A stretch of DNA of 64,000 nucleotides from Sphingomonas bacterium (GTDB taxonomy: Bacteria; Pseudomonadota; Alphaproteobacteria; Sphingomonadales; Sphingomonadaceae). The position numbers were made by a program, and so were the translations under genes. Below are positions 23,969-57,375 of this stretch, piece after piece. The notes under the pieces are model-generated. The model saw only the letters and a list, made by a program, of their open reading frames with translations. It had not been told where the DNA came from and searched no databases. The stretch spans positions 1-64,000 of the forward strand of contig JASBRX010000011.1 in assembly GCA_030149245.1 (NCBI GenBank), read 5' to 3'. Every line of letters starts with the position of its first letter. Position 1 is the first letter of the stretch.

Positions 23969-24086
23969 CGACCGGGCATATCGCGGCAAAGTGCGACGGT
24001 TTCATGAAGGTGTAACAGACGGCACGGTGGCGATCCGTGCGCAGGGCAATATCTGCCCTATCCCGCTAGAGTCGGTTTCAGTCAGG

Positions 24087-29000: not shown

Positions 29001-30173
29001 TTCCAAACCGTCAAGCGGCCGGTTCGGGTCGCTGCGATGGACCAAAGCCAGATCGTCGAGCAGTGCAAGGATCAGCGCGGCATTGGCCGGATCGAGCCGT
29101 TCGATCAGCCCTGCGAACAGCGCATCCGACAGGCGATTGACCAGCATCGCCAGCGCGGTGCGGTCGCCCGCACTCCGGCGCACATAGGCCAGCAGCGCGT
29201 CGAACATCCCGGCGCGCGCCGCCGTAATTGCTGCGTCGAGGCTGGGGTTCGCAGACGCCTGCGCCGCGTCCGCGTCGGCTCCGGTTTCGGCCAGCAGTTC
29301 ACTCAGGCTTTGCGGCAACGACGCGCCCAGCCCCTGATGCGCGCGCAGCACCGCGACCGCATCGCCGAGCAACCGCAGCAGCACGCCGTAATCCACCCCC
29401 ATCGCCCGCGCTTCCCGCCGCAACAGATGCGCCAGGAAGCGCCGGCGATTGAACTGCGTGCCCGGATCGCGCAGCAGGAATTCAAGCGTCGCGACACGCA
29501 GCACCCGCTCCAGCGCCGGAGCGCCTAACGCGGCGGGAAACGGCGTTGGCGGGTCGCGATGGACGCGCAGGACATCGTCGAGCAGCGCCAGGATCACATC
29601 CGCATCGCGCGGTGCAAGCAACGCAAGCAGCGCGCGAAACCCGCTGTCACCGACCTGCAGCACCAGCCGCTCCAGCGCATGCCGATCACGCGCCCGCCGG
29701 ACGAGCAAGCGGGTCAGCGCTTCAGGCTGTTCGGCGATCAGCCAGCGCAGCCGCGCTGCGGCATCGAACCGCGCGTCGCGCCGCGCGACGGGGAGCCGTC
29801 CGGAGGACAGAAACCGGTCGAAATCCTCGACCCACATCGCCGCAGCATCGACGAGCCGCGCGGCATCGGACGGGCTGTACAGCGCCGCATGCAGCGCCTG
29901 CGCCAGCGCGTCGCTCAGCGCGCGCTCCAGTGCGGCAAGCGCATCTTCCTCCAGATGATCCGGCCGCACAGTGCCCAGATCAAGGTCGAGCCGCGCGATC
30001 CGCAAATGCTGGTCGGGCGGGGCGACCGCATCGCACACCCGCTCGATCACCGTCGGTACCTGTTCCCATGCCAGCCGCTCGATGCGGGAGCGCAACCCGA
30101 ACGCCAGATCGAGATCGGTGACCGACGCGGCGAAGTGCAGCCGCGCGACCCGGTGCGGCGCACCTGCCATCAC
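26028..30173 (-). CDS. eCIS tape-measure protein (Afp14-like) with internal repeats
   Basis: This is a 1381-residue, highly helical, Ala/Leu/Arg-rich protein. It matches the 'contractile injection system tape measure' family at both ends: an N-terminal strand HRVARLHFAASVTDLDLA and a conserved C-terminus (IFIGNAGLVLFSPYLPTLFERL, HLLQYLV, LVLNKLLCGLP, ETFLQREGRL, KTVDVLVDQVPWSFAMVYH). Between them are repeated modules of about 169 residues: DPGTQFNRR occurs at 236-244 and 405-413, each followed by a similar helix series (SHQGLRGSLP and AHQGLGASLP), with more degenerate copies later. Tape-measure length sets tube length in phages and CIS. Start and stop overlap both neighbours (4 and 7 bases). 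Confidence 0.88.
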   Translation of the reverse strand: MMAGAPHRVARLHFAASVTDLDLAFGLRSRIERLAWEQVPTVIERVCDAVAPPDQHLRIARLDLDLGTVRPDHLEEDALAALERALSDALAQALHAALYSPSDAARLVDAAAMWVEDFDRFLSSGRLPVARRDARFDAAARLRWLIAEQPEALTRLLVRRARDRHALERLVLQVGDSGFRALLALLAPRDADVILALLDDVLRVHRDPPTPFPAALGAPALERVLRVATLEFLLRDPGTQFNRRRFLAHLLRREARAMGVDYGVLLRLLGDAVAVLRAHQGLGASLPQSLSELLAETGADADAAQASANPSLDAAITAARAGMFDALLAYVRRSAGDRTALAMLVNRLSDALFAGLIERLDPANAALILALLDDLALVHRSDPNRPLDGLETSLRVLTLDYLIRDPGTQFNRRQFLAFLIAQEAARAKIGYRQMLSLFADAVARLRSHQGLRGSLPTVLAELVDQAGREAVDQSADDAVQVAVRAGDMAALMQALARHAQDPDTLLALVRGLPAPVFARLLRHLRPASATKLLALIAELTALPLALASQPELTAWVRTAGLGWLLRAGDRRFDRRAWLSAVLAEVAARGGMDAAALHRLVAESGAGYDDAAALTGLRDEGDSATARIALLRTAARDPVRLHRLAGQLDPQGRARLLALLDPRGAAAMQAVLQRIATLHRETRLLDLDAAAFAELLWTLAVAWQVRRGGGAFDAAAFTNAIVQEIARFGGKRAADITAALAVGDAAPPAASEPQRVIDQYLRGGAPRGAGRGLPAMLAADPHWLAMAIRRTARSAPAHLPAMVERLLHWLMPDELIECLAPGLGARALRWADAAGGVDGAQWQAIVAALLDGQTPAFAAVPAAAGRRLDRVALLAHWLDHGATPWWAADAEGLAAALAELPQATHAELVQLFGDRGFAGLWRVVKASDPTLHAALFERLIPWAIRPRGALALTLDRLGPRERLLALTRAAADVLGGRDPDLAQLADPPDEPQGDDPAAPPAAAGPGMVDTARLFAWLDGGVASASERAALIRHFALLADRDDPELRAWIDARRGDRRARARWAALLPVEALARLVRLLVPAGAQPWLDTAAMLGIAARRTATFGAPAPDPAALWAILLDLVAGDAVPTPVAGAALLVERLAQGDAERAERLRRDAVRLAQDGGHRAVAAALRRAAPPDPPPDAPVAAQPRARRSSPTARDEDEDAALMPPETDDAIFIGNAGLVLFSPYLPTLFERLDLLTDTDTGPRIVDAEAMSRGVHLLQYLVDARCDAPEPELVLNKLLCGLPSAQPVAASFVPSKAELAVCDGLIGAVIANWSILGNASPAALRETFLQREGRLTHGADRWNLQVQRKTVDVLVDQVPWSFAMVYHRWMGEAVHVTW

Positions 30174-30733
30174 GTCAGGCTCTGGCGCGCGTCACTCGCA
30201 GATTTTGACCCCAACTGCACGGCGCGGGCACCCATCACATCCGCCTCGCGCTCCAGATGCCGGTCGTCATTGACCGCCACCCCTTGGGCCATCTGCACGG
30301 TCGGCTGAACCTGGCCGCGGGCTTGCTGGACGACGTGCCATGCCTCGTGCGGCACATGGTGGGCCTGGCCCGGCGCGACATGGATGTCACTGCCCTGCGC
30401 ATAGGCGTGGGCGTTGAGCTGCGCCGGCTTGGGCGAATTATAGTGCACCCGCACATGGTCCATCGACATGCCCGACAGCGTCTCGACTCCGGTCTTGACG
30501 GGATCGGGCAGACCGGTTCGGTTCGCCGCCCGCTGCACTGGCTTGCGCTTCTCGGCCATCTGAAGCTGCTTCTTCTTGGAGGCGAGTTGGGTCGGCTTCT
30601 TCTTCGAGGCCGGTTGCGCCAGCTTTTTCTTGGGCGCGAGCTGGGCCAGTTTCTTTTTTGGGGCCAGTTGCGCCGGCCGGGCGGTGCCGCCGGCGCGGGT
30701 GGTGGAACGGTGCTGCATCGTCTGCTGGGCCAT
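30170..30733 (-). CDS. Short eCIS core-domain (DUF4157) protein
   Basis: The 187-residue protein opens with a Lys-rich repeat region (about 22-66) of a QLAPKKKLA-type unit in four to five copies. A DUF4157 domain follows (about 67-175). It keeps HEAWH (129-133) and a downstream LEREAD acidic motif, the pattern of a zinc metallopeptidase-like core. DUF4157 marks putative eCIS cargo. Residues 68-138 are almost identical to the same part of the larger protein at 31275-33107, but nothing follows the domain here, so there is no separate toxin. It could be a loading or processing factor, a tube-lumen protein or a truncated effector. It overlaps the tape-measure start by 4 bases. Confidence 0.82.
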   Translation of the reverse strand: MAQQTMQHRSTTRAGGTARPAQLAPKKKLAQLAPKKKLAQPASKKKPTQLASKKKQLQMAEKRKPVQRAANRTGLPDPVKTGVETLSGMSMDHVRVHYNSPKPAQLNAHAYAQGSDIHVAPGQAHHVPHEAWHVVQQARGQVQPTVQMAQGVAVNDDRHLEREADVMGARAVQLGSKSASDARQSLT

Positions 30734-31255: not shown

Positions 31256-31274
31256 CGTCTCTCCTCTCAAGCGC

Positions 31275-33107
31275 TCACAGAAGAGGCTGGATCGCATGCA
31301 TATCGGCCGCAACCAGCCGATGAATGCCCGCGCCGTTCACCGGGAAGAATTGCCCAAGGATCGTGCTGTTCGGACCGCTAACCGGCGGGCCGCCCGCTTT
31401 GGTGCCCATCCTGGCCGTAAACCCACCCGTCACAACGTCTCGGGCGTGACTTGGCATAATCCACCAGCCGCCAGCCGCTGCTCCCGCGCGCAACGTGCCG
31501 AGGCCACCGATCACCAGATTCTCGACCGCATTCGCGGCTCCGGCGCCGGTGAATGGCCATTGATCATCGACCGGACTGATCGCACCGAAATCGAAATAGT
31601 GCATCGTATGGCGGGTCAGGAAATGCGCCCACTCGACAGCACCGATCTGTCGGGGAGAGGGAATTGGTATTTCCCCCAAGTTTGGCGGAGCGTTGTATGC
31701 GGCCAGCGCGCCTGCAATCGTGCCCGGCTCGGGCGGTGGGGGCTGCTGTGCGAAATACTGGATCAATCCCGCCAGCCGGGCGAATTCCACCGCGTTGCCG
31801 GCGGTGTGCGTCGTCAGCGGAATGGCAAACTGGCCGTTCCCATTGTGATTCCGGGCAATCTCGGTGGTCAGCAACGGAATCGACCCTGGCCCGCCCGCGC
31901 CCGCGATCATTGTCTGAAGCACCGGCATTTGCGCCACGCCTGCTGCGGCGATCAGCTGATCGAGCGCCGGGAGTCCGGCACCGATCGCGTGGGGAATGAG
32001 CGCATAGAGCGACACCGCGTGCGCCGGGGTCGCACGATGCACCACCGCATCCAGCTGCACCAAATTCGCCGCACCGCCCGCTGCCGGGATCATGCCGACC
32101 AGCAGATGCGCATTGGCGGGCAGGATGTGCTGGATCAACAGGTCGAGTGTCGCCAGGTGCGGCGTCGCGATTGCGATCAGCTGGGGCAGGATTCCAGCAT
32201 GCGCCGGGGTTAGCGTATTGGCCAGGGTGATGGCTTGCCCGATATTGGCAACGCCGCCCACCTGACGGATCAGTTCGTCGGTGAGGCCAGCGTGTGGGCC
32301 AAGCGCCGTCACCAACGGGATTTCGGTCTGCACCTCGTTCCGCAACTGGGTGGCGACGGCGACGCGCGCGCCCAATCGGCCCGGCGCGTTGATGTAATTG
32401 GTCAGCCTGTTGACCAGCAGATTGCCCGCCCCGAGCTTCCCCGCCCCGGCGCTGATATAGGTCGCCAGCAATCCGTCGATCGCCGCGATCTGATTGCGTG
32501 GGCGCAGCGTCCGCGCCGGGGTCTGTGCCTGGAACTCGGCAACGCTGCGCACCGCCTGGATCACCTGACGCTGTGAAACCGGCGTTGCCGGGACACGCAG
32601 CGCCGCCGGAGCGGACGCGCGACCGCCCGGCAACGCCGCGCGCTGCACCGCCAAGGCGCCCATCCGATCGGCTTCGCGCTCAAGCCCCGCGTCATCGTTC
32701 AGCGCCACGCCGCCCTTAAGCTGGGTGGTGGCGCGCACCCGGCCCTGCGCCTGCTGGACGACATGCCACGCCTCGTGCGGCACATGATGCGCCTGGCCCG
32801 GAGCGACATGGATGTCGCTGCCCTGAGCATAGGCGTGCGCATTCAACTGCGCCGGTTTGGGCGAGTTATAATGGACCCGGACGTGATCCATCGACATGCC
32901 CGACAGCGCCTCGACCCCGTGTTTGACATGATCGGGCAGACCGGTGCGGTTGGCCGCGCGCTGCGCCAGACGCTGCACCGGCGGCGCGGCGTTGAGTGCC
33001 GACGCAAGCTGAGTCAGCGCGCCGCCCTTTGGCCCGGCGGTCGGCTTGCCCGGCACTTCGGCGCGTGCGAACGGCGCCGCGCGCTGGCTGGCGACCTGAT
33101 CACCCAT
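31275..33107 (-). CDS. Putative eCIS effector: DUF4157 domain with C-terminal extension
   Basis: The 610-residue protein has a disordered start (1-45) and then a DUF4157 eCIS core domain (about 47-150) with HEAWH at 111-115 and LEREAD at 142-147. A helical middle follows (about 190-450) with loosely repeated units of the form xLxLLIxxILPAxAHLLxxxIPAAG. The final 119 residues differ, with a His-rich start (WAHFLTRHT at 493-501) and a Trp/Gly-rich end. DUF4157 with a variable C-terminus is the common form of eCIS cargo. The end resembles RNase-like polymorphic toxins only by its His/Arg cluster, so the activity is unknown. An ATG with GGGGAG upstream follows the second glycosyltransferase after 18 bases. 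Confidence 0.78.
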   Translation of the reverse strand: MGDQVASQRAAPFARAEVPGKPTAGPKGGALTQLASALNAAPPVQRLAQRAANRTGLPDHVKHGVEALSGMSMDHVRVHYNSPKPAQLNAHAYAQGSDIHVAPGQAHHVPHEAWHVVQQAQGRVRATTQLKGGVALNDDAGLEREADRMGALAVQRAALPGGRASAPAALRVPATPVSQRQVIQAVRSVAEFQAQTPARTLRPRNQIAAIDGLLATYISAGAGKLGAGNLLVNRLTNYINAPGRLGARVAVATQLRNEVQTEIPLVTALGPHAGLTDELIRQVGGVANIGQAITLANTLTPAHAGILPQLIAIATPHLATLDLLIQHILPANAHLLVGMIPAAGGAANLVQLDAVVHRATPAHAVSLYALIPHAIGAGLPALDQLIAAAGVAQMPVLQTMIAGAGGPGSIPLLTTEIARNHNGNGQFAIPLTTHTAGNAVEFARLAGLIQYFAQQPPPPEPGTIAGALAAYNAPPNLGEIPIPSPRQIGAVEWAHFLTRHTMHYFDFGAISPVDDQWPFTGAGAANAVENLVIGGLGTLRAGAAAGGWWIMPSHARDVVTGGFTARMGTKAGGPPVSGPNSTILGQFFPVNGAGIHRLVAADMHAIQPLL

Positions 33108-33125: not shown

Positions 33126-34358
33126 TCATGACACGCACCGTGCATCCGCCGGCCCCGAGACCTTGCCCAGCCACCGCCCCTGACGGTCGGTCGGCCAAAC
33201 CGTCCAGCTGCGCGGCGGGTGCGGCGCGTGGACCAGCCGGTCGAGCACGATCTCGCCCGCACCGGTCGCCAGCGCCGCGCTGATCTCGGCCGGACGCGCA
33301 TCGACCCGTGCCAGCTCGACATCAGCCTCGTCATGAAAGCCGACATACCAGAAGCTTGGCCGGTCGAGCGCTGGATCGGCCAGCGCCGCGCGGTCGAGTC
33401 GGATACGCACTGCCCAGGTCTTGACCGCCGCCGATCCCGCCGCCGGCGGCACCCCGGCCGGGTCACCGCGCCGCGCGGCGGGGCTGGCATAGCGCCGCCG
33501 GAAACTCACCCCGGCCCAGGCTTCGTACTGCGCAAAGCTGCGCGCCGTGCCGCAGCCAAAGGGGCCGGTATCGGGATCGAGCAGGAAGCGGCGGACTTTG
33601 GCGATGCTCGCCGCGTCGCGCGCCGCCGCCGTCACCGCCACCTGCTGCGCCACGACATGATCGTCCCAGTGGAGCGGGGTCCTGCGCCGTGGCTCCTGAT
33701 GCCACAGCACATGTACGCCGGGATGAAACAGGTCGTATCCATGGGTAAAGGCGCGGATCGCCAGGCTGATCTCCTCGCCGTAGAAATAGAGCTCGGGATC
33801 ATAGGGCACATCCGCGACGAACCGCCCCGGCGCGAACAACAGATGCGCCGACAGCAACCGCGCGCGCACCGGCCCGCCATCCTCCGCCCAATCCGGCTGC
33901 TCGACGCATTGCGCCACCGGCAGTCCGTCACGCCGGAAACTGTGCAGCGCGATGCTGGTCGGCATCGGGGCGGGCAGCGGCGTCGCCGGATCGAACGGGC
34001 GACCATAGGTGGTCAGCAGCGGCAGCGCCGCCCCGCTCCGCTCCGCCTGACCGATTAGGATCGCGTCCCAATCCTGCGCGAAGCGGTGATGCGAATCGAG
34101 CTGCAGGAACCAGTCCTCGCCATCGTACAGCGTCATGCACTGCGCGCGCGCCCAGCAGGCGCCTTCGCTCACCTGCCACGGCACATCGATCAGCTCGACC
34201 CGCCCGCGCAGCCTGGGCGGTCGCGGCTCGTCCGGCCCATGTTGCCAGCACAGGCTGAAGCGCAGCTCCTCCGGCCAACGCGCCTTGGCGACACAGTCGC
34301 GGATCGTCGGGATCAGATCGGGGTCGCGATACGCTGCGATCGAAATGAAGATGCTCAT
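33126..34358 (-). CDS. GlcNAc-transferase-like glycosyltransferase, copy 2
   Basis: The 410-residue soluble protein has a GT-A fold start (MSIFISIAAYRDPDLIPTIRDC), a metal-site triplet DSH at 88-90 in FLQLDSHHRF, and a conserved GEEISLAIRAFTHGYDLFHPG segment. This is the pattern of the GlcNAc family named after the eukaryotic Skp1 hydroxyproline GlcNAc-transferase. I chose the ATG at 34358, which overlaps the stop of copy 1 (ATGA). The C-terminal 100 residues look like a beta-sandwich (FWYVGFHDEADVELARVD). The donor and the acceptor are unknown. Its place inside the eCIS operon suggests that a particle component is glycosylated. Confidence 0.78.
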   Translation of the reverse strand: MSIFISIAAYRDPDLIPTIRDCVAKARWPEELRFSLCWQHGPDEPRPPRLRGRVELIDVPWQVSEGACWARAQCMTLYDGEDWFLQLDSHHRFAQDWDAILIGQAERSGAALPLLTTYGRPFDPATPLPAPMPTSIALHSFRRDGLPVAQCVEQPDWAEDGGPVRARLLSAHLLFAPGRFVADVPYDPELYFYGEEISLAIRAFTHGYDLFHPGVHVLWHQEPRRRTPLHWDDHVVAQQVAVTAAARDAASIAKVRRFLLDPDTGPFGCGTARSFAQYEAWAGVSFRRRYASPAARRGDPAGVPPAAGSAAVKTWAVRIRLDRAALADPALDRPSFWYVGFHDEADVELARVDARPAEISAALATGAGEIVLDRLVHAPHPPRSWTVWPTDRQGRWLGKVSGPADARCVS

Positions 34359-35605
34359 GCCGTCACCTCGATCACTGGATGGTCGCTCGCCGCGTCGATC
34401 GCGCCATCGATCCGGTCGAGCCACTGGCCGCGCCGGTCGACGGGCCACACCGTCCAGCGTGCCGGGGGACGGGTCGATGCAAAGCGCCGCTCGATCCGGA
34501 TCGGCCCGTCGCCACCGTTGAGCAGCGCGTGCATCTCCGCGCGTCCGGCATCGTCGCGCGCAATCTCATTGCCTTGGCCGTCGTGGAAGCCGACATACCA
34601 AAAGAGCGGGTGGCGCAACGCCGCATCGGGCAATGCCGCGCGATCGAGCGAGACCCGCACGGTCCAGTCCCGCGCCGCCGCACGCACGGGCAGCGGTTCG
34701 GGCTCATCTCCGCGCCGCGCTGCGCGGCTGGCGTGGCGGCGGCGAAAGCTGATGCCCGAATAGGCCTCGTAATCGGCGAAGCTGCGCGCGGTGCCACAGC
34801 CAAATCGTCCGACCTCGGGCGTCGCCAGAAAGCGCCGGACCTTGTCGAGGCTCGCCGCATCGCGTGCGTGCCAAGGCGTCGCGACGCCGCGCTCGGCGCG
34901 GTGATCGTCCCAATGCTTGCTGCGATGCTTGCGTGTATATTCGTGCCACGCGACATGCTGCCCCGGGTGGTACAGGTCATAGCCATGGGTGAAGGCGCGG
35001 ATCGCCAGGCTGATCTCCTCCCCGATGAAATACAGGTCCGGGTCATAGGGCACGTCCGACACGAACTGCCCCGGAGCGAACAGCAGATGCGCGGACAGGA
35101 AGCGCGCGCGGATCGGCGCACCATCGGGTTTTTCGGCGACCGGGCCGAACTGGCACAGCGCAATCCCCTCCGGCGTGAAGCGGTCGAACCGCATCACCGT
35201 CGGGCGCTCGCTCGCCGGTACCGGCACCGCCGGATCATAGGCGGGAGCATAAGCGGTGAGCAGCGGCAGCGCCGATCCGCTACGCGCCGCCTGATCGATC
35301 AGGGTCGCGTCCCAATCCTGCGCGAAACGATGATGCGAATCGAGCTGCAGGAACCAGTCCTCGCCATCATAGAGCGACATGCACTGCGCCCGCGCCCAGC
35401 ACGCCCCCCGGCTCGCCGCCCACGGCACATCGATCACCCGCATCCGCCCGCTGTCGAGCGTTGGCGGCGGCGCTTCGTCCAGCCCATGCTGCCAGCAAAT
35501 CCCGAACCGCAGCCGATCGGGCCAGCGCGCGCGGGCCAAACAGTCCTTGATCGTCGGGACCAGCTCGGGGTCGCGATAGGCGGCGATCGAGATGAAGATC
35601 GTCAT
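34355..35605 (-). CDS. GlcNAc-transferase-like glycosyltransferase, copy 1
   Basis: The 416-residue protein is a paralogue of the next gene, colinear from MTIFISIAAYRDPELVPTIKDC, with DSH at 89-91, GEEISLAIRAFTHGYDLYHPG and the same C-terminal sandwich (FWYVGFHDGQGNEIARDD). It overlaps the baseplate-fusion stop by 4 bases and the copy 2 start by 4 bases, so the three are translationally coupled. The tandem arrangement points to duplication followed by divergence, perhaps for two acceptor sites. No signal peptide or membrane segment is seen, so it should act in the cytoplasm, where eCIS particles assemble. Confidence 0.78.
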   Translation of the reverse strand: MTIFISIAAYRDPELVPTIKDCLARARWPDRLRFGICWQHGLDEAPPPTLDSGRMRVIDVPWAASRGACWARAQCMSLYDGEDWFLQLDSHHRFAQDWDATLIDQAARSGSALPLLTAYAPAYDPAVPVPASERPTVMRFDRFTPEGIALCQFGPVAEKPDGAPIRARFLSAHLLFAPGQFVSDVPYDPDLYFIGEEISLAIRAFTHGYDLYHPGQHVAWHEYTRKHRSKHWDDHRAERGVATPWHARDAASLDKVRRFLATPEVGRFGCGTARSFADYEAYSGISFRRRHASRAARRGDEPEPLPVRAAARDWTVRVSLDRAALPDAALRHPLFWYVGFHDGQGNEIARDDAGRAEMHALLNGGDGPIRIERRFASTRPPARWTVWPVDRRGQWLDRIDGAIDAASDHPVIEVTA

Positions 35606-38600
35606 TGCGGCGCCAGCCAGACCGGCGTCTTGCCGTCAAGGTCGCGCTGGACGACGTCTAGGTCATAGGCGACGCCGTCGATCACATAGCTGCTGCTGAT
35701 CGACTGGACCATGCAATAGCCGGTCTGGCTGAGCGCCGGAACGGTGCTGCCCGATTGCCAATAGTAATCGAACGGCAGCGCCTCGATCTCGCTCGCGTTC
35801 AGGCCGGTGTTGGCGCCGATATAGACGCCGGGTACATAGCCCGCCGCGCTGACATGATCGGCCCAGGCCTGACAATAGGCGGTGGTGGTGGACGTCGGCG
35901 TGCCCGACGCCACCCCCTCCAGATCGACCCACAGGATCATGCCGGGCGGCAGGCCGATCTCCTGCGCATTGGCGACGGCATAGCTGCCATAGCTGTCCCC
36001 CAGCGACTGGCTCGGCGTCCAGCCGGCCGACGCGACATGCTGCACCACCATCAACGCTAGGCCGGCGCCCAGGATCGCCTCGGCCTCGCTCGTGGTCAGA
36101 TTGCCCTGCGCATTGCCGGGCGTGGCGACGAAGGTGCGCGGCACGTAGCGCACCGCGAAGTCGAACCCGGCATCGACAAAGCTTGCCGCGCTGCTCGCGG
36201 TCAGCACGGTGTTGCAGTCGAAGCCCGGCGCCCCCGGCGGCGCTGCCACGACCGTGCCCGGCAACAGCTTGGACGGCGCGGGCGTGGGAGCGGGGGCTGG
36301 AGTAGGCGGTGGTGTCGGCGTTGGCATAGGCGTCGGCTCCGGCAGCGGAGTTGGCGTCGGCGGCGGGGGTGGCGGCGGGATCGGCGCAGCGGTGGATGGT
36401 GGCGGCGCGGGTGTCGGTTCGGGCTCGGGCAACGGCTCAGGCTCGGCATGGCGCTTGCCGAACCAGCGCCAGATCAGCAGCGCCGACAAGATCGGCCACA
36501 GCCAGGTCTGCCAGAACCACTTCAGCCAGCTCCACACCGGATGCGGGTCCGGCTCCGGCGTTGGATCGGGCGGCGGTGGCTCGGGTGTCGGCGTGGGCGT
36601 CGGCGACGGTGGATAGGGCGTCGGTTCCGGCGGAGGCGGCGGCACCGGGGTCGGCTCTGGCGTAGGCTCGGGCGTCGGGACAGGGGTTGGCGCGGGCGTT
36701 GGTTCAGGCGTCGGCTGCGACGTCGGTTGCGGGCCATCGATCGCGCGGGTCAGGAATTCGGCCAGCTCGCGGCTCGCGCGCACCAGCCGGCCCTGATGGC
36801 AATGCCGCACTGCCTCGCGCCAGCCGTCATAGAGCGCCTCGAACCGCTCCATCATCCGGTCATCGAAGAACAGGCAATCGAGTGCGACATGCGCCGGCGT
36901 ATTCTGGCGCAGGATCGTCTCCGCCTCGCGCCGCCAGCCATGATCGTCGCGCTCGGCCCGGGTCGCCGACACAACCGCCGTCACGCGGAAATTATACGGC
37001 TCACCGCCCCGCGCATCGCCGAGCATGGCGGAGCGCAGCAGGATCCAGTCGACCACATAGAGCCGGGTGCGATGGCGACCGTGCTGGCGATGATGATGGT
37101 GGCGGTCATGCTGCCCCCCGCCATGGCGACGATCCTCCAGCAACCGGCGGATCACCGCCCGCGCGCACGCCTCATCGTCATGCTCGCCGAGCCACCACCA
37201 CGCACCGTCGGCATCGACCACCACCACGACGATGGTCAGGTCGCCATCCGCCCTGCCGATGCGATAGCTGGCAGGATCGCTCAGCGCCTGCGCCAGCGAC
37301 GGCGCGACGTGCCGCCCGGCGATGGGCGACGGGCCGTCCGCCGCGCCATCCACCTCGCCGTTCACAACGGGAGCCACCGGCTTGAACAGCCGCTCCAGCG
37401 ATGGCCAGGTCTCGGCGGGCAGGCGCACCCCGAACTCGGGCTGGCGTTGGTCGGACGTGGACCGGTCGCCGTCCGTGTCCCCCCGCCCCGACCCGCTGCC
37501 CTCCTCCGCCGTAACCGTGTCCAGCAGGCCGAGCTGGATCCGGCTCAACCGCTCCATCCCCGATACGCCATGGAGCGAATGCGGCCGCCGATAATCCGCG
37601 CCGCGCCCGCGATTGGCGCTGAGGCTGGCGACATGGCGCAGCATCGCGCGCTTGGCGGCGAGCAATTCGCGCTGCTCGCGCGGGCTCGCCCCGGCCATAT
37701 CGGTGCCATAAGGGCCGGTCACGCGCTGCGCATAAAGCGACAGCATCAGGTCGAGGATCGCCCCCTGTCGCACCGCCACCGGATCGGCATCGGCGACCAG
37801 CTGCGCCATCCCCGCCTCATAGCCTGGCTGCAACAGCGGTTCGACATCGGGAACGATCGGCCGCAGCGACTGCCACGCATAGGTCGCGTCGCCTCCGGTC
37901 TGGATCGAAAACAGCTCGCGCAGAAACGCGATCTGGCTGAACCCGTCGGCCATCAGCTGGTCGAACGGCATCAGATAGCCCTTCAACTGCCGCGCCTGCG
38001 CCGCCCGCGTCACCGTCGCGTCCGCGCCCAGCCCGGCATCGTTGATGCCATAGACATTGGGAAACTGGCTCTGGACCGAGCTATAGTCGGCAAGATCGCG
38101 ATAGTCCGCCACCGGCGGGCCAAAGCGTTCGGCAACTTCGCGGCGCACGGGATAGGTGCGGCGATGCTCGGCCCAGAGCTGGTCGAGCTTGCGCCGTACC
38201 CGTCGCGGATCGGGGTGGCACCGCGCGTAGTCGCGATAGAGGTGGATGGTGAAGTCGCCGCTCCGCCCCTCCGGCTGGAGCGCGAATACGCCGCCCGGGG
38301 GCGCGCGCATCACCTCGCCCTGTGACACATGGCGCTGCTCGCTGCTGACCTCGACCGACAGCGCATCGACCGCCACGATGCCGGGCGTTTCGGCCAGCAC
38401 CTGCAGCAACTGCTCGACCGGCAGCCGGCGCGGCAGTGGGCCCAGCCACGCATCGTCGATGAATCCGCGCAGCATGCGTGGCCCGGCGAACAGCCGCGCC
38501 GTCGCCGCATCCGCCGCCAGCTGTTCGTCCAGCGATTGCCGTTTGGGTTCGGGCGCAAGGGTCAACCCGAGCGCGAACAGCGCCGCTGCCAGCGTTTCCG

Positions 38601-39219
38601 ACGGATCGGCCCCGTCGGCAATTTGGGCGCGGGCGTGGACATAGGTGTCGATCGGAGTCAGCACGATTGTGTTGCGCACGTCCTCACACAGCGCGCGGTG
38701 GCGGCGATAGCAGCGCTCGACCTGCTCGATCAGCCGCGCATCGGCCGCGCACGGATCGCCGCGCGCATCCTCCTTCCGGTCCGCTCGTGCAAGAATCGCG
38801 ATGTCGTACAGCCCCGACAGCCTGCGCAACCCGCCGCCCCGCGCCGGAGTGAACCAGACATTGGCGACCCCAGGCACCCGGTCGATTACGACGCGGCGCA
38901 AATCGTTCGCGGTCACCGGATTGCACGGCAGGATCGCGGCAGCGGGTATCAACCCGTGGCGGCGCAGCGGGACATGCGTCGCATCCGGTGGGCTCAACAG
39001 TTCGGTGACCGGAAACGCCGCGCGATAGGGCAGCTCGGTGAGCGCGTAGCAGAGCTGCTCCAGGATCGTGACGCCCGGATCGGAATAGTTGAAGTCGGTC
39101 CAGATCTGCCGCGCCATCGCATGGCTCAGCCGGACCGCCTCGGCCCGTAGCGTCGCATAATCGCTGCCCGCTCCGGTCCCGGCATGATCGCGCGGAATCG
39201 ATGTCGGCGCGGCCGTCAT
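35602..39219 (-). CDS. Baseplate protein (Afp12-like) fused to membrane-spanning linker and DUF1906 domain
   Basis: This is a 1205-residue three-part protein. Residues 1 to about 827 are Afp12/gp47-like (FNYSDPGVTILEQLCYALTELPYRAAFP; later NTPAHVALDCLFFDD), with a His-rich insert near 725-745. Residues 828-997 are a Pro/Thr/Glu linker interrupted at about 895-922 by a Trp-rich hydrophobic stretch (VWSWLKWFWQTWLWPILSAL) long enough to span a membrane. Residues 998-1205 form a DUF1906 (Rv2525c-like, GH25-like barrel) domain with FDCNTV, VDLEG as a D-x-E pair, YIGAN and DYYW. DUF1906 proteins are thought to act on the cell wall, though catalysis is not firmly shown. An anchored baseplate carrying a wall-directed domain would be unusual for an extracellular particle. 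Confidence 0.82.
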   Translation of the reverse strand: MTAAPTSIPRDHAGTGAGSDYATLRAEAVRLSHAMARQIWTDFNYSDPGVTILEQLCYALTELPYRAAFPVTELLSPPDATHVPLRRHGLIPAAAILPCNPVTANDLRRVVIDRVPGVANVWFTPARGGGLRRLSGLYDIAILARADRKEDARGDPCAADARLIEQVERCYRRHRALCEDVRNTIVLTPIDTYVHARAQIADGADPSETLAAALFALGLTLAPEPKRQSLDEQLAADAATARLFAGPRMLRGFIDDAWLGPLPRRLPVEQLLQVLAETPGIVAVDALSVEVSSEQRHVSQGEVMRAPPGGVFALQPEGRSGDFTIHLYRDYARCHPDPRRVRRKLDQLWAEHRRTYPVRREVAERFGPPVADYRDLADYSSVQSQFPNVYGINDAGLGADATVTRAAQARQLKGYLMPFDQLMADGFSQIAFLRELFSIQTGGDATYAWQSLRPIVPDVEPLLQPGYEAGMAQLVADADPVAVRQGAILDLMLSLYAQRVTGPYGTDMAGASPREQRELLAAKRAMLRHVASLSANRGRGADYRRPHSLHGVSGMERLSRIQLGLLDTVTAEEGSGSGRGDTDGDRSTSDQRQPEFGVRLPAETWPSLERLFKPVAPVVNGEVDGAADGPSPIAGRHVAPSLAQALSDPASYRIGRADGDLTIVVVVVDADGAWWWLGEHDDEACARAVIRRLLEDRRHGGGQHDRHHHHRQHGRHRTRLYVVDWILLRSAMLGDARGGEPYNFRVTAVVSATRAERDDHGWRREAETILRQNTPAHVALDCLFFDDRMMERFEALYDGWREAVRHCHQGRLVRASRELAEFLTRAIDGPQPTSQPTPEPTPAPTPVPTPEPTPEPTPVPPPPPEPTPYPPSPTPTPTPEPPPPDPTPEPDPHPVWSWLKWFWQTWLWPILSALLIWRWFGKRHAEPEPLPEPEPTPAPPPSTAAPIPPPPPPPTPTPLPEPTPMPTPTPPPTPAPAPTPAPSKLLPGTVVAAPPGAPGFDCNTVLTASSAASFVDAGFDFAVRYVPRTFVATPGNAQGNLTTSEAEAILGAGLALMVVQHVASAGWTPSQSLGDSYGSYAVANAQEIGLPPGMILWVDLEGVASGTPTSTTTAYCQAWADHVSAAGYVPGVYIGANTGLNASEIEALPFDYYWQSGSTVPALSQTGYCMVQSISSSYVIDGVAYDLDVVQRDLDGKTPVWLAPQ
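36229..36738 (-). repeat. Low-complexity Pro/Thr/Glu linker coding DNA
   Basis: This is the linker part of the baseplate fusion. Two tracts of short CCx-ACx-CCx-GAx codon repeats flank the Trp-rich segment at about 36457-36537. Such tracts change length easily by slippage, so linker length may vary between strains. Confidence 0.75.
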
Positions 39220-42200
39220 GCGCCCGCTCCCACCGCCGGTTGCAGCGCGCGCAGCGGGGCCGGGGTCGCCGGCGCTGCGGTCAGATCATGGGTGAGCGCC
39301 GAGGTCAGATAGACACAGCCGCTGCGCGGCGGCGCGTCCTCGGGCGCGATGTCGAACCGATCGATGCCGCAGATATAGGGCCGCCCGCGGATGAATTCAG
39401 TGACAGCGCGGCGCGTATAGTAACGCTGCGGACGCGGCCCCAGCGTCGGGTCGGGCCAAGGGGAGAGCCATTTGACCAGCTCGCCCTGCAGCCGCTCGAT
39501 CCAATAGGCACCGGTATTCTCGTCGCTGAAGCTGATCTGTGCGCTGACCTTCAGCCGCAGATAGGGCGGGTTGGTGACGGTGAGCTGGATGAACGGACTG
39601 ATCGCCGCCTGCAGCGTCTGGCCGATCTCCGACAGCGTGGCGAGGTCGATCGAGGGCGTGGTCGGGTCGGTGATATTGGGCGTTTCGGGCCCCGCGACCG
39701 CGATCAGCCAGACGCTGCCCGGCGATCGCGCACCGGTCTTCTCGTCGGTCGCCGGCACCACCGCGACCTGCCACAGCGACGGCACAGCGGCGAGCGCGAT
39801 CCGGGCATAGTCCCAGGCATCGATCCCGAACCCCTTGTGGCGCAGCCGCTCCGCCATCCATTTCTGAAAGTCGCGCCCGGTCGCTGGCGGGCGGCCGCCA
39901 AAGGACTGCATCGGCTGATCGATCGACGCCACGCCGGGCAGTGCATCAACAGATTTCTTGATCGTCCCGACCGGCAGCGGGCTGCCCAGCCCTTCGGCCC
40001 CGCCGGGTCCCACCCATAGCGCAGACACGGCGTTGGCAATCACCGCTTGGACGATCGGCGCATTGCGCGTCACCCCGCGCGTCCGCACGCGCAGCCGCGG
40101 ATGCCCGCCCGGATCGGTGCGCAGCTCCAGCGTCACGATGCCGCTGTTGCGCAATCCATCGGTCGTGTCGCCCAGCAGGGTCAGCGGCACCCAGTTGCCG
40201 TCGATCACCTGTTCCCACACCATCGACGGCGGATCGTCCCACCAGCCATCGGGTCCGGCCTGAAGGATGAACAGCAGCGCCACCTGCTCCACCTGCACCG
40301 ACAGGTCGATATAGAGCGCGGCATGCGCCTCGATCCGGGGCAGCAGTCCGGCCGTGCCGCTGTCCGGCGCGACCGGCGGGGTCAGCGATCCGAACGGGTC
40401 GATGTGCCAGAATTCGAGTTCGAGCGGCGCCTCGCCCGATGCCGACGGGGGCGGCGAACCAACCGACTTGGGCATCAGCGTGGTGGTCAGGTCGAGCCGC
40501 GCCGACGCCGAATAGTCGACCGAAATCGCCGACGCCATCGGCAGCCACGGCGGATTGGGCAAAGGCGGCGGTGGTGGTGGCGGTGGCGGCGCAGGAACCC
40601 CGCGCCCGCCCCGCGCCGCCGCGCTGGCCGCCGCAGTCTGCGCCGCCGACGCTGCCATCAGATTGCTCGAATAGAGGATATTACCGAACGCATAGCTGGG
40701 CGCGACCAGCGCCAGCGTGAGGCGGGTGGTGGCCGCGCTGTAATAGGCTGGCGCGCTCATTGGGATCACCCCCGGCACCGCCAGCACCGATGTGCGCAAC
40801 AGTGGCGCATCAGCAACCGGCGTGGCTGCATCGCCCGATGCAGCCGGCGGCGATGTGCGGAACAGCGGCTGCGCGGTCGATGCGACATCCCATCGCCCGG
40901 GATTGCTCACTGCAAACGCGACCTGAAAGCTGGTGTTGTCGAACAGAGGGGCGGACGACACCGCTCCATCGGCATCGATCACATAGCCCTGATAATAGCC
41001 CTTGAACCCCGTCTTGGTGACCGGCAGCCCCGCCCAGTCGATCGTCAGCGACAGTCGATCAATCGGCTTGGCAAACAATTCGGGCGCAGCGATCTCCAGC
41101 GCCGAATATTGCGCCGGGGGCATGCCGAGCAGTGCGAAATTCTGCGCCGGGTCGACCGGCCCGTTCGGCGACGACAGCGTCACCGCGTCGAACCCGCTCA
41201 CGCCGACATCGACGAACACCGTATCGATCTCGACCTGCGACAGGATGGCAAAGGCCGCCGACTCCTCGGCTCCGGTCAAATTCAGCCCGCCCAGCACGGC
41301 CGGCTGATCGGGGGCTTCGGGAAAGGCGCTGGCGGGGTGGGTTGGCGGCGGCGCACCCTTCGCCGGTGGCGTGGACAGCGCCACCAGGGGCGGCGCATCC
41401 GGGGGGAGTTCGAACAGGATCGAGAACAACGTCGCGCAATCACCGCCGGCCAGCGGGATCGGCGTCACGGTGAAGCTGTCCACCGCCATCCATCCCCCGG
41501 CGGTCGAATAATGGAGGTGAAAACTCGCCTCGATCGCCCGCGCCAGCAACTCGGCGAGCGCGAAGCTGTTTGCTGCGTCGGACTGCCCGTGCGCAAGCGG
41601 GCCGCTGCGCCGCGACACCGCCAGCCCGATCTCCACCACGCGCGTCCCTGCGGTCAGCATCAGCGTCGGACTGGCGATGCAGAACCCCAATGTGGCGCGC
41701 GTGAGCGTCAGCGCGCCATAGGTGCCCGCCGCATTCGCCCCGAACAGCGGAAAGCTCGCTCGCCCGCCTGCCATGATCGCGACCTCGCCGCTCAGCACGC
41801 CGGTCGGCACCAGCGGGTCGGAGCCCGGGCTCCACGGCAGATGGGTCACGCGATGCACGCTGAGCCGAGTCACGGTGGCGGGCGTCACCTCCAGCGCCGA
41901 TTGCGCGGCATAGTTGATCGCCGCCCCGCTCGCATCGGCCCCCGCGCCGAACAGCGCGCCATGCGGCACCGACGCCTGCGTCGCGTCCTTGGCGCGGGTG
42001 AAGGTCAGGAACAGGCTGTCGGGCTGCGGCGCCAGCCCGTGCTGGTCGAGCACCTGCCCATAATAGAAATCGACAAAGCGGCGCGGGAAGCGGTTGAGCG
42101 TCGCGCGCTGCTCGGCAAACAGGATCGCAAAGGCATTGTAGAGCGCCGCCTGCGGCGCATGGTCGCCGGACTCGCTCGACTGGACCAGTGCCTCCCCGGC

Positions 42201-42806
42201 CTGTGCCCGCGCGCGCTCGATCGCGGAGAGCAGCTCGCCCAGCAACGCCTCGATCAGGTCGATCAGCTTGCGCCCCCAGCCGTCGAAATGATGGCGCAAC
42301 CCGTCATCGAGCGTGTGGCGCGTCAGATGCTGCTGCACCCGCGCAAGCTGGGGATGCAGCGCTCGGTGATGGCCGCGCAGCCGGTGCCCGCGCAGCCGCG
42401 CCTCGCCATCGCCTCCGCCCGGCCAGTCGCGATCGAGAATGGCCAGCAGATGCACGATCGCGGCGAACAGCTTTCGCAGCCGGTGCCCGCGCGCCTCCGG
42501 GTCATGCTGATCACGCAGGTCGCGGATCAGGTCGCGCAGCGCGGTCTCCACTTCGGGCAGATCCACCGCCAGTTGCATCGCATAGCCGATCGTCGGGTCC
42601 GCCGCGAAGAATGCCGCCCAGTCGCCCGCAGGCCGGTCATCCAGGTCGTAGAAGCGGATCAGTTCGCCATAGCCCGCCGCGAACGCGAGCAGCTGCGCCA
42701 GGCTGCGTCCATCGACCGCGACGGTATCGGGAGCAGGGGCACCGCGCGCGCGGTCGAGCTGGCTCGTCGCGTCGTTCAGGATGCGTCCCGCGCGCGGCCC
42801 CGCCAC
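39216..42806 (-). CDS. Baseplate J/gp47-like protein (Afp11-like)
   Basis: The 1196-residue protein has an N-terminal helical part beginning RAGRILNDATSQLDRARG and LAFAAGYGELIRFYD (typical of Afp11). A long beta-rich middle follows, with a Pro run near 735 (VPAPPPPPPPPPLPNPPW). The gp47-like end contains IDLATLSEIGQTLQAAISPF, NPPYLRLKVSAQISF and EFIRGRPYICGIDRFDI. This is the wedge protein that links the spike hub to the sheath. It starts 11 bases after gp25 and overlaps the next baseplate gene by 4 bases (ATGA). It is larger than the common Afp11 mainly because of the middle beta-sandwich region. Confidence 0.85.
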   Translation of the reverse strand: MAGPRAGRILNDATSQLDRARGAPAPDTVAVDGRSLAQLLAFAAGYGELIRFYDLDDRPAGDWAAFFAADPTIGYAMQLAVDLPEVETALRDLIRDLRDQHDPEARGHRLRKLFAAIVHLLAILDRDWPGGGDGEARLRGHRLRGHHRALHPQLARVQQHLTRHTLDDGLRHHFDGWGRKLIDLIEALLGELLSAIERARAQAGEALVQSSESGDHAPQAALYNAFAILFAEQRATLNRFPRRFVDFYYGQVLDQHGLAPQPDSLFLTFTRAKDATQASVPHGALFGAGADASGAAINYAAQSALEVTPATVTRLSVHRVTHLPWSPGSDPLVPTGVLSGEVAIMAGGRASFPLFGANAAGTYGALTLTRATLGFCIASPTLMLTAGTRVVEIGLAVSRRSGPLAHGQSDAANSFALAELLARAIEASFHLHYSTAGGWMAVDSFTVTPIPLAGGDCATLFSILFELPPDAPPLVALSTPPAKGAPPPTHPASAFPEAPDQPAVLGGLNLTGAEESAAFAILSQVEIDTVFVDVGVSGFDAVTLSSPNGPVDPAQNFALLGMPPAQYSALEIAAPELFAKPIDRLSLTIDWAGLPVTKTGFKGYYQGYVIDADGAVSSAPLFDNTSFQVAFAVSNPGRWDVASTAQPLFRTSPPAASGDAATPVADAPLLRTSVLAVPGVIPMSAPAYYSAATTRLTLALVAPSYAFGNILYSSNLMAASAAQTAAASAAARGGRGVPAPPPPPPPPPLPNPPWLPMASAISVDYSASARLDLTTTLMPKSVGSPPPSASGEAPLELEFWHIDPFGSLTPPVAPDSGTAGLLPRIEAHAALYIDLSVQVEQVALLFILQAGPDGWWDDPPSMVWEQVIDGNWVPLTLLGDTTDGLRNSGIVTLELRTDPGGHPRLRVRTRGVTRNAPIVQAVIANAVSALWVGPGGAEGLGSPLPVGTIKKSVDALPGVASIDQPMQSFGGRPPATGRDFQKWMAERLRHKGFGIDAWDYARIALAAVPSLWQVAVVPATDEKTGARSPGSVWLIAVAGPETPNITDPTTPSIDLATLSEIGQTLQAAISPFIQLTVTNPPYLRLKVSAQISFSDENTGAYWIERLQGELVKWLSPWPDPTLGPRPQRYYTRRAVTEFIRGRPYICGIDRFDIAPEDAPPRSGCVYLTSALTHDLTAAPATPAPLRALQPAVGAGA

Positions 42807-42817: not shown

Positions 42818-43288
42818 TCATGATGGCGGCGGAGGCAGCGTCGCCTCCATCCGGTAAAAGGGGAAGACCAGGTTGCTGCGCGAATTGGTCTGACGGACGA
42901 TGTAATCGATCGAAATGTCGATCCATCCGGCCAGCTCGGCGTCGGTCACGGTGACCGCTTCGACCGTCACGCGCGGTTCCCAATCGATAATCGCACGGGT
43001 CACCATCGATGCGATCGCGTTCGCGGTAGTCGTGGTAAGCGCGGTAAACACCTTCGAGATCAGGTCGCAGCCGAATGTCGGCAGCATCACCCGCTCGCCC
43101 AGGCTGGTGGACAGGATGATCCACAGGCTCTGGCGGATATCGGCATCGCCGCTCGCCATCGCGACGGTGCAGGAAACGCGGTTGAAGGTGGGCGGAAAGC
43201 TCCAGCCGCGCCCTAGAAAGGCCGGCTCGACCGGGGGATAGATCGTCGCCACCGTCGCGGGCGGCAAGGCGCGCGACCGACCGCTCAT
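42818..43288 (-). CDS. gp25-like baseplate protein (Afp9-like)
   Basis: The 156-residue protein carries the gp25/GPW pattern: LWIILSTSLGERVMLPTFGCDLISKVF, a variant of the LxTxxGER-x-P-FG-C signature (about 55-82), followed by IIDWEPRVTVEAVTV. The protein forms the baseplate wedge that starts sheath assembly. It overlaps the spike gene by 4 bases. The N-terminus is longer than in phage gp25, with a GWSFPPTFN segment as is usual in eCIS. Confidence 0.9.
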   Translation of the reverse strand: MSGRSRALPPATVATIYPPVEPAFLGRGWSFPPTFNRVSCTVAMASGDADIRQSLWIILSTSLGERVMLPTFGCDLISKVFTALTTTTANAIASMVTRAIIDWEPRVTVEAVTVTDAELAGWIDISIDYIVRQTNSRSNLVFPFYRMEATLPPPPS

Positions 43289-45060
43289 GGGTTGAGCGCC
43301 ACCGTCGCGCCCTTGATCTGCATCGGCCCGTCCGCGCTGATCTGCGCCGATGCGCTGGCGCTAACGTTGAGCGAGGCCGACGCGCTGATCGTCACGTCGC
43401 TGCCTGCGCTCATCTTGATCGCGCCAGTCGCGGTCAGGGTGATGTCGGACCCACTCTTCAGCGTGATCCCGCTGTCGTTCATCGTGATGCTGTTGCCATT
43501 GGCGTCGGTGATCGTGATCACCTTGGTCTTGTCATTCAGGCTGATGCTCTGGTTCGCCGGGGTGGTGATCAGCAGCTCGGGCGAATCCTCGATAAAGTCG
43601 ATGTGCAGCTTCGACTTGGTCATGAAGCTCTTGATGTTGTTCGGCGCGCCATCGCCACCCGAGGTCGGCGGATAGGGTGGCGGATTGGCCTTGCTGTACA
43701 GGCTGCCCAGCACCACCGGATAGCGCGGGTCGCCGTTGAGGAAGCTCAGGATCACCTCGTCGCCGATCTCGGGATAGAAATTCGATCCGATCCCGTTCGA
43801 CGCATAGAAGGATCCGAACCGCGCCCACACCCCCGCCCCGCCCTGCGCCTGCAACAGCGGCAGCGTGACCAGCACGCGAAACTCGCCGTCCGGGTCCTGG
43901 TCGATCTGCTTGACGATGCCGGTCTGCAGATTGTTGATCGGAGTTTGCTGGCCCGACGCGCCCGGCGCGGCGATGTTGGCCGCCGTCTCGGCAAAGCTCG
44001 CCGCCGACAGGCCGATATCGACCGTCGTCTTCCACAGCCCTTCGGACAGCCGGTGATGGACGCCGGAAACATAGCCATTGCCGTTGAACCGCGCGCCGAG
44101 CCCGCCCAGCGTCACCATGCAGCCGGGCACCGCCAGCGCGCTGCCCTGAAAGCGCACCTGCCCGCGGATCTTGGACAATTCGCGCAGCATCAGCTCCGCC
44201 GACGACCAGGCGGTCAACTCGGCTTGCTGCAGTTCCCCGCCGCTCTGCTGCCAATAGGGGCTGACTCCGAACACTTGGGCCAGCGTCGAAGAGGAGATGT
44301 TGCCAGGCGTCGTCACGCTCGCCGACGCGCTGCTCGACGTCGCCAGCGCCTGCGTCGCCGGGTCCCAGCCAAAGCTGGAGATGGCGCTCGCCGCAATCTG
44401 CGTCTGCGCGTCCATGTCGGCGCGGAAATCGAGGATCGACTGGCCATAGGTCAGGCTCAGCACCGGGCTGGTGCTGGTATCGGGCGGGGCCACGGTAACG
44501 GTGCCGTTGGCCACGGTCACGACCATCGAATTGGCCTGCGCGCGCAGGATCATCAGGTCCCAGGCCGTCGCATAATATTGCACGATCACCGGATATTGCG
44601 TGCTGGTGCTGGTCACCTTGGGCGTCACCCCGGCGGCGCTGATCAGCTTTTCGATCATCGCGCTGTCGGTGCTGTTCTCAAAGATCGCGTTCTGACGCGC
44701 GATCGTCATCGCCATCGCCTTGTCGCTCGCCTCGACCACCAGCCGCGACGGGCCGTCGACGCTCGCCTCCAGCCCCTGCCGGACGATAACTCCGCTGAAA
44801 ACCTGAGTCAGGCTCGATCCGTAACCGATGCTGATGGTCAGCGTGACCCCGGGGATCAGCGATGCGCTCTCGCTGATCGGGAAATTCTCGTCCGCCGCAC
44901 TGCCGTCGGAGATGACGAGCCGCGCGCGCGGCAGCCGGTTGACCGCGCTCCACGTCTCGATCGTCACGACCTGATAGCTGGAGTCGAGCGCCGCGCCATT
45001 GACCTTGATCTCGAACGCGGGCGGCGTGGTCGCGAGCTGGTCGGGCGATGGCGCGGTCAT
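43285..45060 (-). CDS. VgrG/gpV-like spike hub (Afp8-like)
   Basis: The 591-residue protein has gp27-like hub domains (about 10-380, FEIKVNGAALDSSYQVVTIETW). A gp5 OB-fold follows (about 385-470, TGIVKQIDQDPDGEFRVLVTLP, VWARFGSFYASNGIGSNFYPEIGDEVILSF). The C-terminus is a beta-helix needle of short repeated units (ITLKSGSDITLTATGAIKMSAGSDV). This is the central spike trimer that carries the PAAR-like tip. It overlaps the LysM protein gene by 4 bases. Confidence 0.9.
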   Translation of the reverse strand: MTAPSPDQLATTPPAFEIKVNGAALDSSYQVVTIETWSAVNRLPRARLVISDGSAADENFPISESASLIPGVTLTISIGYGSSLTQVFSGVIVRQGLEASVDGPSRLVVEASDKAMAMTIARQNAIFENSTDSAMIEKLISAAGVTPKVTSTSTQYPVIVQYYATAWDLMILRAQANSMVVTVANGTVTVAPPDTSTSPVLSLTYGQSILDFRADMDAQTQIAASAISSFGWDPATQALATSSSASASVTTPGNISSSTLAQVFGVSPYWQQSGGELQQAELTAWSSAELMLRELSKIRGQVRFQGSALAVPGCMVTLGGLGARFNGNGYVSGVHHRLSEGLWKTTVDIGLSAASFAETAANIAAPGASGQQTPINNLQTGIVKQIDQDPDGEFRVLVTLPLLQAQGGAGVWARFGSFYASNGIGSNFYPEIGDEVILSFLNGDPRYPVVLGSLYSKANPPPYPPTSGGDGAPNNIKSFMTKSKLHIDFIEDSPELLITTPANQSISLNDKTKVITITDANGNSITMNDSGITLKSGSDITLTATGAIKMSAGSDVTISASASLNVSASASAQISADGPMQIKGATVALNP

Positions 45061-45749
45061 GCCGATGCCCCGCTCAGTGGCGGGAACAGCAATTGCGTGC
45101 CGGGCGGCACATTACGAAAGCTGAGCAGCCGGTTGAAGTCCGCGACCCCGCGATAATAGCTGCTGTCGCCATAGACCTGATAGCACAGCAGCGGCAGCGT
45201 ATCCCCCGCCTGCACCGTGATCAGGTGCGTCATGTCGGGCGAATTCTTGTTCTCCTCCTTCGCCAGCTGGGTCTCGCTGGTATAGGATTGAAACGACACC
45301 GCGACCTTGGCGCGCAGCGGCGTGCCGTCCGGCCGGAACAGCGTGTAGTTCACGTTCATGCTCGCCAGCACGCACTGGAACTGCAGCTGGGCCCAGGCGA
45401 GGATCAGGTAATTGGGGCTATGAATGTCGCCATTGAGCGTCGCGGCGAGCGTGGTGAACTGCGCGATCGCATCGGCGACGCCATTGGTATAGCTTTGCCC
45501 CTGCGCCGGCGGGATCACCCCGGTCGCGTCGAACACCAGTTCGAACGACACTTCTTCGCGCGCCACGCGGTTGAACTCGGGCGACGGGCCGCTGCTCCCC
45601 TGGGCCTGGCGGTCGTTATAGCTGATATTGGTGCTGTGTGTATAACTCGCCGGGTTGATCCACACGGTGAACGGCTCGCCGACCTGCGACGAGAAACCCG
45701 GGTCGGAATAGGCGGTGATCACCATCTTGGCGGGTGCGGTCACCGGCAC
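45057..45749 (-). CDS. LysM-containing baseplate/tube adaptor (Afp7-like)
   Basis: The 230-residue protein has an N-terminal tube-like beta domain (FTVWINPASYTHSTNISYND, VSFELVFDATGVIPP) and a C-terminal LysM domain (about 172-225, HLITVQAGDTLPLLCYQVYGDSSYYRGVADFN). In Afp and PVC this protein joins the tube to the spike hub, as gp53 and gp54 do in phages. The LysM module here is structural rather than necessarily peptidoglycan-binding. Confidence 0.88.
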   Translation of the reverse strand: MPVTAPAKMVITAYSDPGFSSQVGEPFTVWINPASYTHSTNISYNDRQAQGSSGPSPEFNRVAREEVSFELVFDATGVIPPAQGQSYTNGVADAIAQFTTLAATLNGDIHSPNYLILAWAQLQFQCVLASMNVNYTLFRPDGTPLRAKVAVSFQSYTSETQLAKEENKNSPDMTHLITVQAGDTLPLLCYQVYGDSSYYRGVADFNRLLSFRNVPPGTQLLFPPLSGASA

Positions 45750-45750
45750 G

Positions 45751-45945: not shown

Positions 45946-45969
45946 GCGTCACCCCTCCCCCGATGGTGT

Positions 45970-46464: not shown

Positions 46465-46469
46465 CCCGG

Positions 46470-57374: not shown

Positions 57375-57375
57375 C

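Follow-up and report, generated by a model that had tools for sequence, protein, structure and literature searches.

What could be the role of an arm, made up of a Trp-rich hydrophobic segment and a predicted lysozyme-like domain, at the end of a baseplate wedge protein of a contractile injection system (CIS)? The question is raised by a 64,000-nucleotide stretch of DNA from a Sphingomonas bacterium (contig JASBRX010000011.1, positions 1 to 64,000; hereafter the window), in which an open reading frame (ORF) at 35602-39219 on the minus strand, having an ATG start and encoding 1205 residues, is found within a CIS operon with all genes on the same strand, adjoining the gene for an Afp11-type protein and near that for a gp25-like protein. 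The fusion was found to be a family trait, yet rare overall. With regards to function, we tentatively propose that the arm serves to dock the particle on a membrane, for which the cytoplasmic membrane of the producer itself, at its inner face, is the most probable candidate. The sequence does not decide between such a docking arm and its main rival, a released particle with a fibre-like arm.

Composition and spread of the fused wedge protein

The N-terminal part of the protein belongs to the Afp12/Cis12-type family of baseplate wedges, and the Afp12-like assignment made in an earlier note from the letters of the window was borne out by matches to the solved structures of SalCis12 (9rce, 1e-47), Anabaena All3315 (7b5h, 6e-47) and Algo12 (7aeb, 2e-46), as well as to Afp12 (6rao) and Pvc12 (6j0n) at about 1e-14, all of them becoming stronger when the family profile was used. 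That profile (alignment A1) reaches residue 795 of 804 in SalCis12, and the extension therefore begins about where SalCis12 ends. The whole linker that follows (residues 827-995) contains 72 Pro and 23 Thr among its 169 residues and is split, just as the same note had described, by a Trp-rich segment, with 8 Trp in one span of 28 residues. AlphaFold2 predicted a single helix at residues 894-922, with ten-residue blocks of predicted local confidence (pLDDT) at 90, 92 and 81 and the block holding the helix start at 64, after which the linker continued at low confidence (59-75) into a DUF1906 domain modelled mostly at 91-99.

The Trp-rich segment is not due to chance; none of 2000 whole-protein shuffles matched its Trp density or its Wimley-White octanol score. 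Compared with six close relatives, identity was 76-100% in the region of the segment (892-924), but 61-86% in the first linker (part 833-891) and 36-80% in the second (part 925-985), while the wedge core (67-86%) and the DUF1906 domain (80-95%) were both comparable with the segment. Judged by these sequence comparisons, the segment is under constraint.

The same domain order was also present elsewhere, as the earlier note had suggested to be checked. A protein search gave 402 homologues, of which 120 were listed, and all counts of fused (n = 60) and unfused (n = 60) members given here rest on those listed. Fusion was thus seen in 60/120 according to precomputed Pfam assignments, which agreed with our own DUF1906 profile, and in 11 of 67 loci of named genomes, some of these loci being cut by contig ends. 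The 11 fused loci were mostly from alphaproteobacteria (Sphingomonas, Novosphingobium, Azospirillum and metagenome-assembled genomes), with the addition of Janthinobacterium and Duganella. Counting the window's own genome in each case, a wedge relative was present in 1/149 genomes of the family and 5/396 of the order, and DUF1906 in 3/385 of the class.

A search for long proteins with a close DUF1906 domain yielded 22, all already among the wedge fusions. In two fragments, P0135 and P0234, precomputed Pfam assignments (with P0135 also rescanned) show a DUF1906 domain and a SPOR domain, with a transmembrane (TM)-like stretch after DUF1906; a partnership of SPOR with the fused protein was set aside, as those 22 proteins gave no place to P0135. 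By eye, an immunoglobulin (Ig)-like tail was furthermore seen in place of DUF1906 in the wedge homologues P0064 and P0070 and after DUF1906 in P0051, which suggests that end domains may be swapped.

Properties of the Trp-rich segment and of the DUF1906 head

Strongly hydrophobic linkers (at or below -7 on the octanol scale) were found in 29 of the 60 fused members (shuffled mean 3.6, max 9), and of the 31 others, 24 had only a short basic-aromatic motif (shuffled mean 4.0, max 11), these counts being descriptions rather than tests of independent events, since cut-off and motif were picked after inspection and the members are akin. The remaining seven had neither hydrophobic stretch nor motif, and no Trp, in the linker, although two of them showed basic helix-like stretches by eye; the segment as a defining part of the protein, as the earlier note had it, was accordingly not supported as stated. 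Nine unfused homologues had tails of at least 40 residues, with the motif present in three (P0043, P0057 and P0089), and basic helix-like stretches were noted by eye in the tails of the unfused P0078, P0079 and P0087. At locus L012 of Sphingomonas sp. QA11, the wedge and the DUF1906 head are instead joined by a Pro-rich linker having no such segment. With motif tails in unfused homologues and DUF1906 occurring without the helix, helix and head are therefore separable modules.

The segment of the window protein had a Wimley-White octanol score of -17.6 and a mean hydrophobicity above 1, with a low moment over much of its second half, and the predicted helix of 29 residues is long enough to span a membrane. 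On the Hessa scale, however, the best 19-residue stretch of the linker scored +6.0, and the close relatives P0003-P0006 scored 3.0, as compared with -4.5, -2.2 and +0.9 for the best stretches of an ExbB-like protein, a kinase and ExbD encoded in the window. Four other relatives (P0022, P0024, P0026 and P0035) had values of 0.4 to 1.9, near that of ExbD, so that a spanning helix is possible there. Adding up the flanks of the 29 strongly hydrophobic members, K/R amounted to 20 before vs 66 after the segment and D/E to 68 before vs 25 after; the basic flank was on the DUF1906 side in 21, with equal flanks in 5 and the reverse in 3. Favourable insertion and a positive-inside pattern for an N-in/C-out single span were thus absent from the window protein and most members, and the segments of some relatives are basic amphipathic helices. 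The property common to these segments is probably best termed membrane-seeking.

The C-terminal domain matched PF08924 (DUF1906) with an E-value of 5e-23 (82.6 bits vs a curated cut-off of 27.2) and has the D-x-E pair D1099/E1101, both as the earlier note had read them. Its modelled fold is of the GH25 type, being nearest to Rv2525c and thereafter to GH25 muramidases, with about 10-16% identity to GH25 phage endolysins and muramidases. GH25 enzymes use a D-x-E-like pair. Among the 66 DUF1906 domains of the fused members D-x-E was kept in 51, such that 48 of the 60 proteins carried at least one pair and 12 had none. Twelve polar or aromatic residues were invariant across all 51 D-x-E domains; D1001, H1061, Y1133, Q1172 and D1186 were often altered in the 15 domains lacking the pair, in all of which R1024, E1045, Q1060 and W1119 were kept. 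This pattern is consistent with a functional pocket in the majority of members, and with binding or a structural task in the others, where binding may thus suffice; the predicted lysozyme-like domain likely engages cell-wall sugars. That it would open the wall, which the earlier note had offered as one function, was not supported as stated, with 12 proteins lacking the pair.

Tandem DUF1906 domains were seen in six of the 60 fused members (P0007, P0009, P0010, P0011, P0022 and P0024), with D-x-E lost from one copy in P0011, P0022 and P0024. An origin of the head in phages was also considered, and rejected, as a tblastn search of 50,697 phage records (E 1e-5) gave no close relative of it.

Docking arm, fibre-like arm and other readings

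If the arm docks the particle, the Trp-rich predicted helix on its Pro/Thr-rich linker would bind the membrane, with the basic flank on the C-terminal side of the helix contacting the head groups of anionic lipids, while the DUF1906 head would stay on the cytoplasmic side for as long as the membrane is intact. Upon failure of the membrane the head would bind the sacculus, and perhaps cut it in members having a D-x-E pocket, whereby the envelope would either retain the machine or give it passage. We infer membrane binding, choice of membrane, ligand, catalysis and trigger alike; as for the choice, the first membrane that a free hydrophobic helix encounters after synthesis in the cytoplasm should be that of the producer itself, and the basic side of the helix would favour the cytoplasmic face. 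The earlier note had proposed a membrane-tethered baseplate, and a membrane-associated baseplate has published precedents in the thylakoid-anchored CIS (tCIS) of Anabaena and in CisA of Streptomyces; the segment is under constraint and predicted to be helical, while a TM anchor as then described was not supported. A fuller scheme, in which six wedge arms hold a loaded particle under the inner membrane by their Trp-rich helices until, at membrane failure, the muramidase-like heads clamp or cut the sacculus, we consider rather unlikely; if true, the envelope of a dying cell would serve as a launch platform, and this would be a CIS subtype with a membrane dock and a wall tool on its baseplate.

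Several points weigh against a docking arm. Afp/PVC-type CIS are extracellular in their action, the sequence does not settle which membrane would be bound, and the two eCIS_core proteins encoded nearby would also suit an extracellular weapon. The seven fused members having neither segment nor motif imply that a fused protein need not always contact a membrane, and 12 members lack D-x-E. The Hessa value argues for interfacial over spanning insertion, although in-plane helices fall outside what that scale predicts. With regards to the precedent, GFP-Cis12 was cytoplasmic in E. coli and the Anabaena authors could not tell if Cis12 binds the membrane directly. Finally, several unfused relatives likewise have no Afp13-like gene after the wedge gene, and its absence is therefore not specific to the fusion.

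The main rival is that of a free extracellular particle, where the arm would replace the tail fibre, with the head recognising and perhaps cutting a glycan of the target cell's wall or capsule and the helix entering the target membrane and helping to trigger contraction. This we regard as somewhat unlikely. The place of the arm would suit it, as in AlgoCIS the wedge has its gp7-like part in a lateral position, where it binds the fibres and was termed a re-engineering hotspot, and PVC fibres anchor to Pvc12. In the window, where one small ORF (30773-31312) is unassigned, we saw no fibre-like ORF between the wedge and tape measure genes, an inspection of ORFs made with no fibre profile or eBAP search and with genes elsewhere unscreened, and the same inspection of seven co-directional fused loci (L002, L003, L004, L008, L015, L022 and L029) gave the same result. 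In unfused loci, however, L016, L017 and L055 among others, the wedge gene also leads straight to the tape measure gene. The Ig-like end domains, the eCIS_core proteins nearby, and heads devoid of the catalytic pair, which fit binding, are all consistent with a fibre-like arm, but with six hydrophobic helices exposed, the particle would probably adhere to the membrane of its producer before any other.

That the segment spans the inner membrane, with the wedge inside and the DUF1906 domain in the periplasm on peptidoglycan, would make the arm resemble a covalent form of CisA, for which reporter fusions indicated a disordered cytoplasmic part, a TM segment and a periplasmic domain. Helix length, octanol score and the four relatives with Hessa values near that of ExbD agree with such a bitopic arm, as would the two SPOR fragments, but in those DUF1906 precedes the TM-like stretch. 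The Hessa value of the window's own segment and the flanking charges, which by the positive-inside rule would keep the DUF1906 side in, nonetheless make it improbable. A crude hydropathy screen of 120 listed short DUF1906 relatives, some being fragments of fused proteins, moreover found no convincing signal peptide, the two that were flagged being so through stretches inside the domain, and in 34 of the 54 single-domain fused members the Cys residues of the DUF1906 domain are odd in number, a weak sign in the same direction. The earlier note's transmembrane segment with DUF1906 facing peptidoglycan across an intact inner membrane is thereby weakened.

It is very improbable that the segment packs inside the particle, whether as a bundle of six helices or against the sheath or cage, with no membrane role; its constraint is similar to that of folded parts, but its length, charge and hydrophobicity vary widely, seven members lack it, which ill suits a fixed packing site, and it is placed between long linkers, the second being of low predicted confidence.

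Neighbouring genes and comparison with known systems

The fusion gene overlaps each of its two neighbours, those for the Afp11-type protein and the first PF11397 glycosyltransferase, by 4 bases. Features of the protein and its operon are collected in the table. No match was found for the ORF at 45740-46537, and the true start of the second PF11397 gene may be 34355, because the match begins there. Between the two eCIS_core genes a small ORF with a TTG start (30773-31312, minus strand, 179 residues) had no Pfam match and may not be a gene.

Table. Parts of the fused wedge protein and genes of the surrounding CIS operon in the window.
Feature	Position	Strand	Basis
Cap protein (Pvc16_N)	50025..50654	-	PF14065
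Possible second cap protein	48823..50028	-	SalCis16b at E 0.002 (weak match); Pfam, none above cut-off
Sheath	46950..48761	-	PF17482 above cut-off, PF04984 below cut-off
Tail tube protein (gp19-like)	46470..46913	-	PF06841
CIS tube protein	45057..45749	-	PF19266
Spike (Phage_base_V; weak Phage_GPD)	43285..45060	-	PF04717 above cut-off, PF05954 below cut-off
gp25-like baseplate protein	42818..43288	-	PF04965
Afp11/Cis11-type baseplate protein (J-like)	39216..42806	-	matches 9rce_A, All3317 7b5h, 7aeb_G, Pvc11, Afp11
Afp12/Cis12-type wedge part, residues 1-826	36742..39219	-	matches SalCis12, All3315, Algo12, Afp12, Pvc12
First Pro/Thr-rich linker, residues 827-892	36544..36741	-	composition
Trp-rich hydrophobic segment, residues 893-922	36454..36543	-	predicted helix 894-922
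Second Pro-rich linker, residues 923-995	36235..36453	-	low AlphaFold2 confidence
DUF1906/Rv2525c-like GH25-fold domain, residues 996-1205	35605..36234	-	PF08924; stop codon 35602-35604
D-x-E pair D1099/E1101	35917..35925	-	sequence
PF11397 (GlcNAc) glycosyltransferase	34355..35605	-	start overlaps stop of fusion gene
Second PF11397 glycosyltransferase	33126..34448 (as listed ORF)	-	PF11397 match
eCIS_core-domain protein, possible cargo	31275..33107	-	PF13699
eCIS_core-domain protein, possible cargo	30170..30733	-	PF13699
CIS tape measure protein	26028..30173	-	PF19268
AAA ATPase of CIS operon	24649..26034	-	PF00004

Links to neighbouring genes were evaluated in 18 genomes holding a wedge relative. 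PF11397 was present in 6 of these vs 6 of 385 genomes of the class (own genome included), with a copy directly after the wedge gene in five of the six (L002, L003, L006, L014 and L031) and about 13 kb upstream of it on the same contig in L004. Glycosylation of the Pro/Thr linker by these enzymes was considered and gained no clear support; L031 has the gene directly after its wedge gene although it has neither linker nor DUF1906, and the genome record of L029, where the linker is very Pro/Thr-rich, yielded no PF11397. Just upstream of the CIS operon (53009-59166, minus strand) are genes for a caspase-like protein (PF00656), an unknown protein, a TPR protein and a CHAT protein. PF00656 occurred in 9 of the 18 genomes, with every match in eight of them on a contig other than that of the wedge gene and one match in G163 sharing its contig at a distance of about 95 kb, and no conserved link of these genes with the CIS operon was seen. 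Further away, a 4151-residue ORF (2964-15419, minus strand) lies near genes for a ShlB/FhaC-type transporter, ExbB/ExbD-like proteins, FecR and a sigma factor (15975-23989).

The manner in which CIS other than type VI engage membranes and walls is still being worked out, with tCIS and CisA as two published solutions. We found no paper pairing DUF1906 with 'contractile injection' or PF08924 with extracellular CIS (eCIS) in a search that left supplements and preprints outside, DUF1906 is not named in the main text of a catalogue of eCIS receptor-binding domains, and the papers searched held no description of a built-in envelope tether of this kind.

Alg12, Pvc12 and Afp12 are of the same wedge family but bind separate fibres and gave no match to residues 827-1205. 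The Pfam family and the modelled fold are shared with Mycobacterium tuberculosis Rv2525c and further PF08924 proteins, but Rv2525c is Tat-secreted, according to its PDB title, whereas in the present case a baseplate carries the domain; relative to the distant GH25 endolysins and muramidases, catalysis is in this protein putative. Closer in layout is Anabaena Cis12 (All3315) with Cis13, where a wedge of the same family has an extra domain with a putative amphipathic helix as connector to the thylakoid membrane. That extension is, however, made up of Cis12 residues 610-1100, to which residues 827-1205 gave no match, the TM segment is in the separate protein Cis13, and the text of the paper does not name DUF1906. 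CisA of Streptomyces coelicolor likewise has, by description, a disordered region, a hydrophobic segment and a folded C-terminal domain, and is needed for contraction in cells, but it is a separate protein, encoded at the usual site of the fibre gene, with a periplasmic substrate-binding-like domain rather than a GH25-type head on the wedge. With helix and head in one wedge chain, and relatives missing either module, anchoring, recognition and wall cutting would be separable by deletions in one gene. By analogy, the best reading is that of an arm that would work in a manner akin to the tCIS anchors or Streptomyces CisA, but being covalently part of the wedge.
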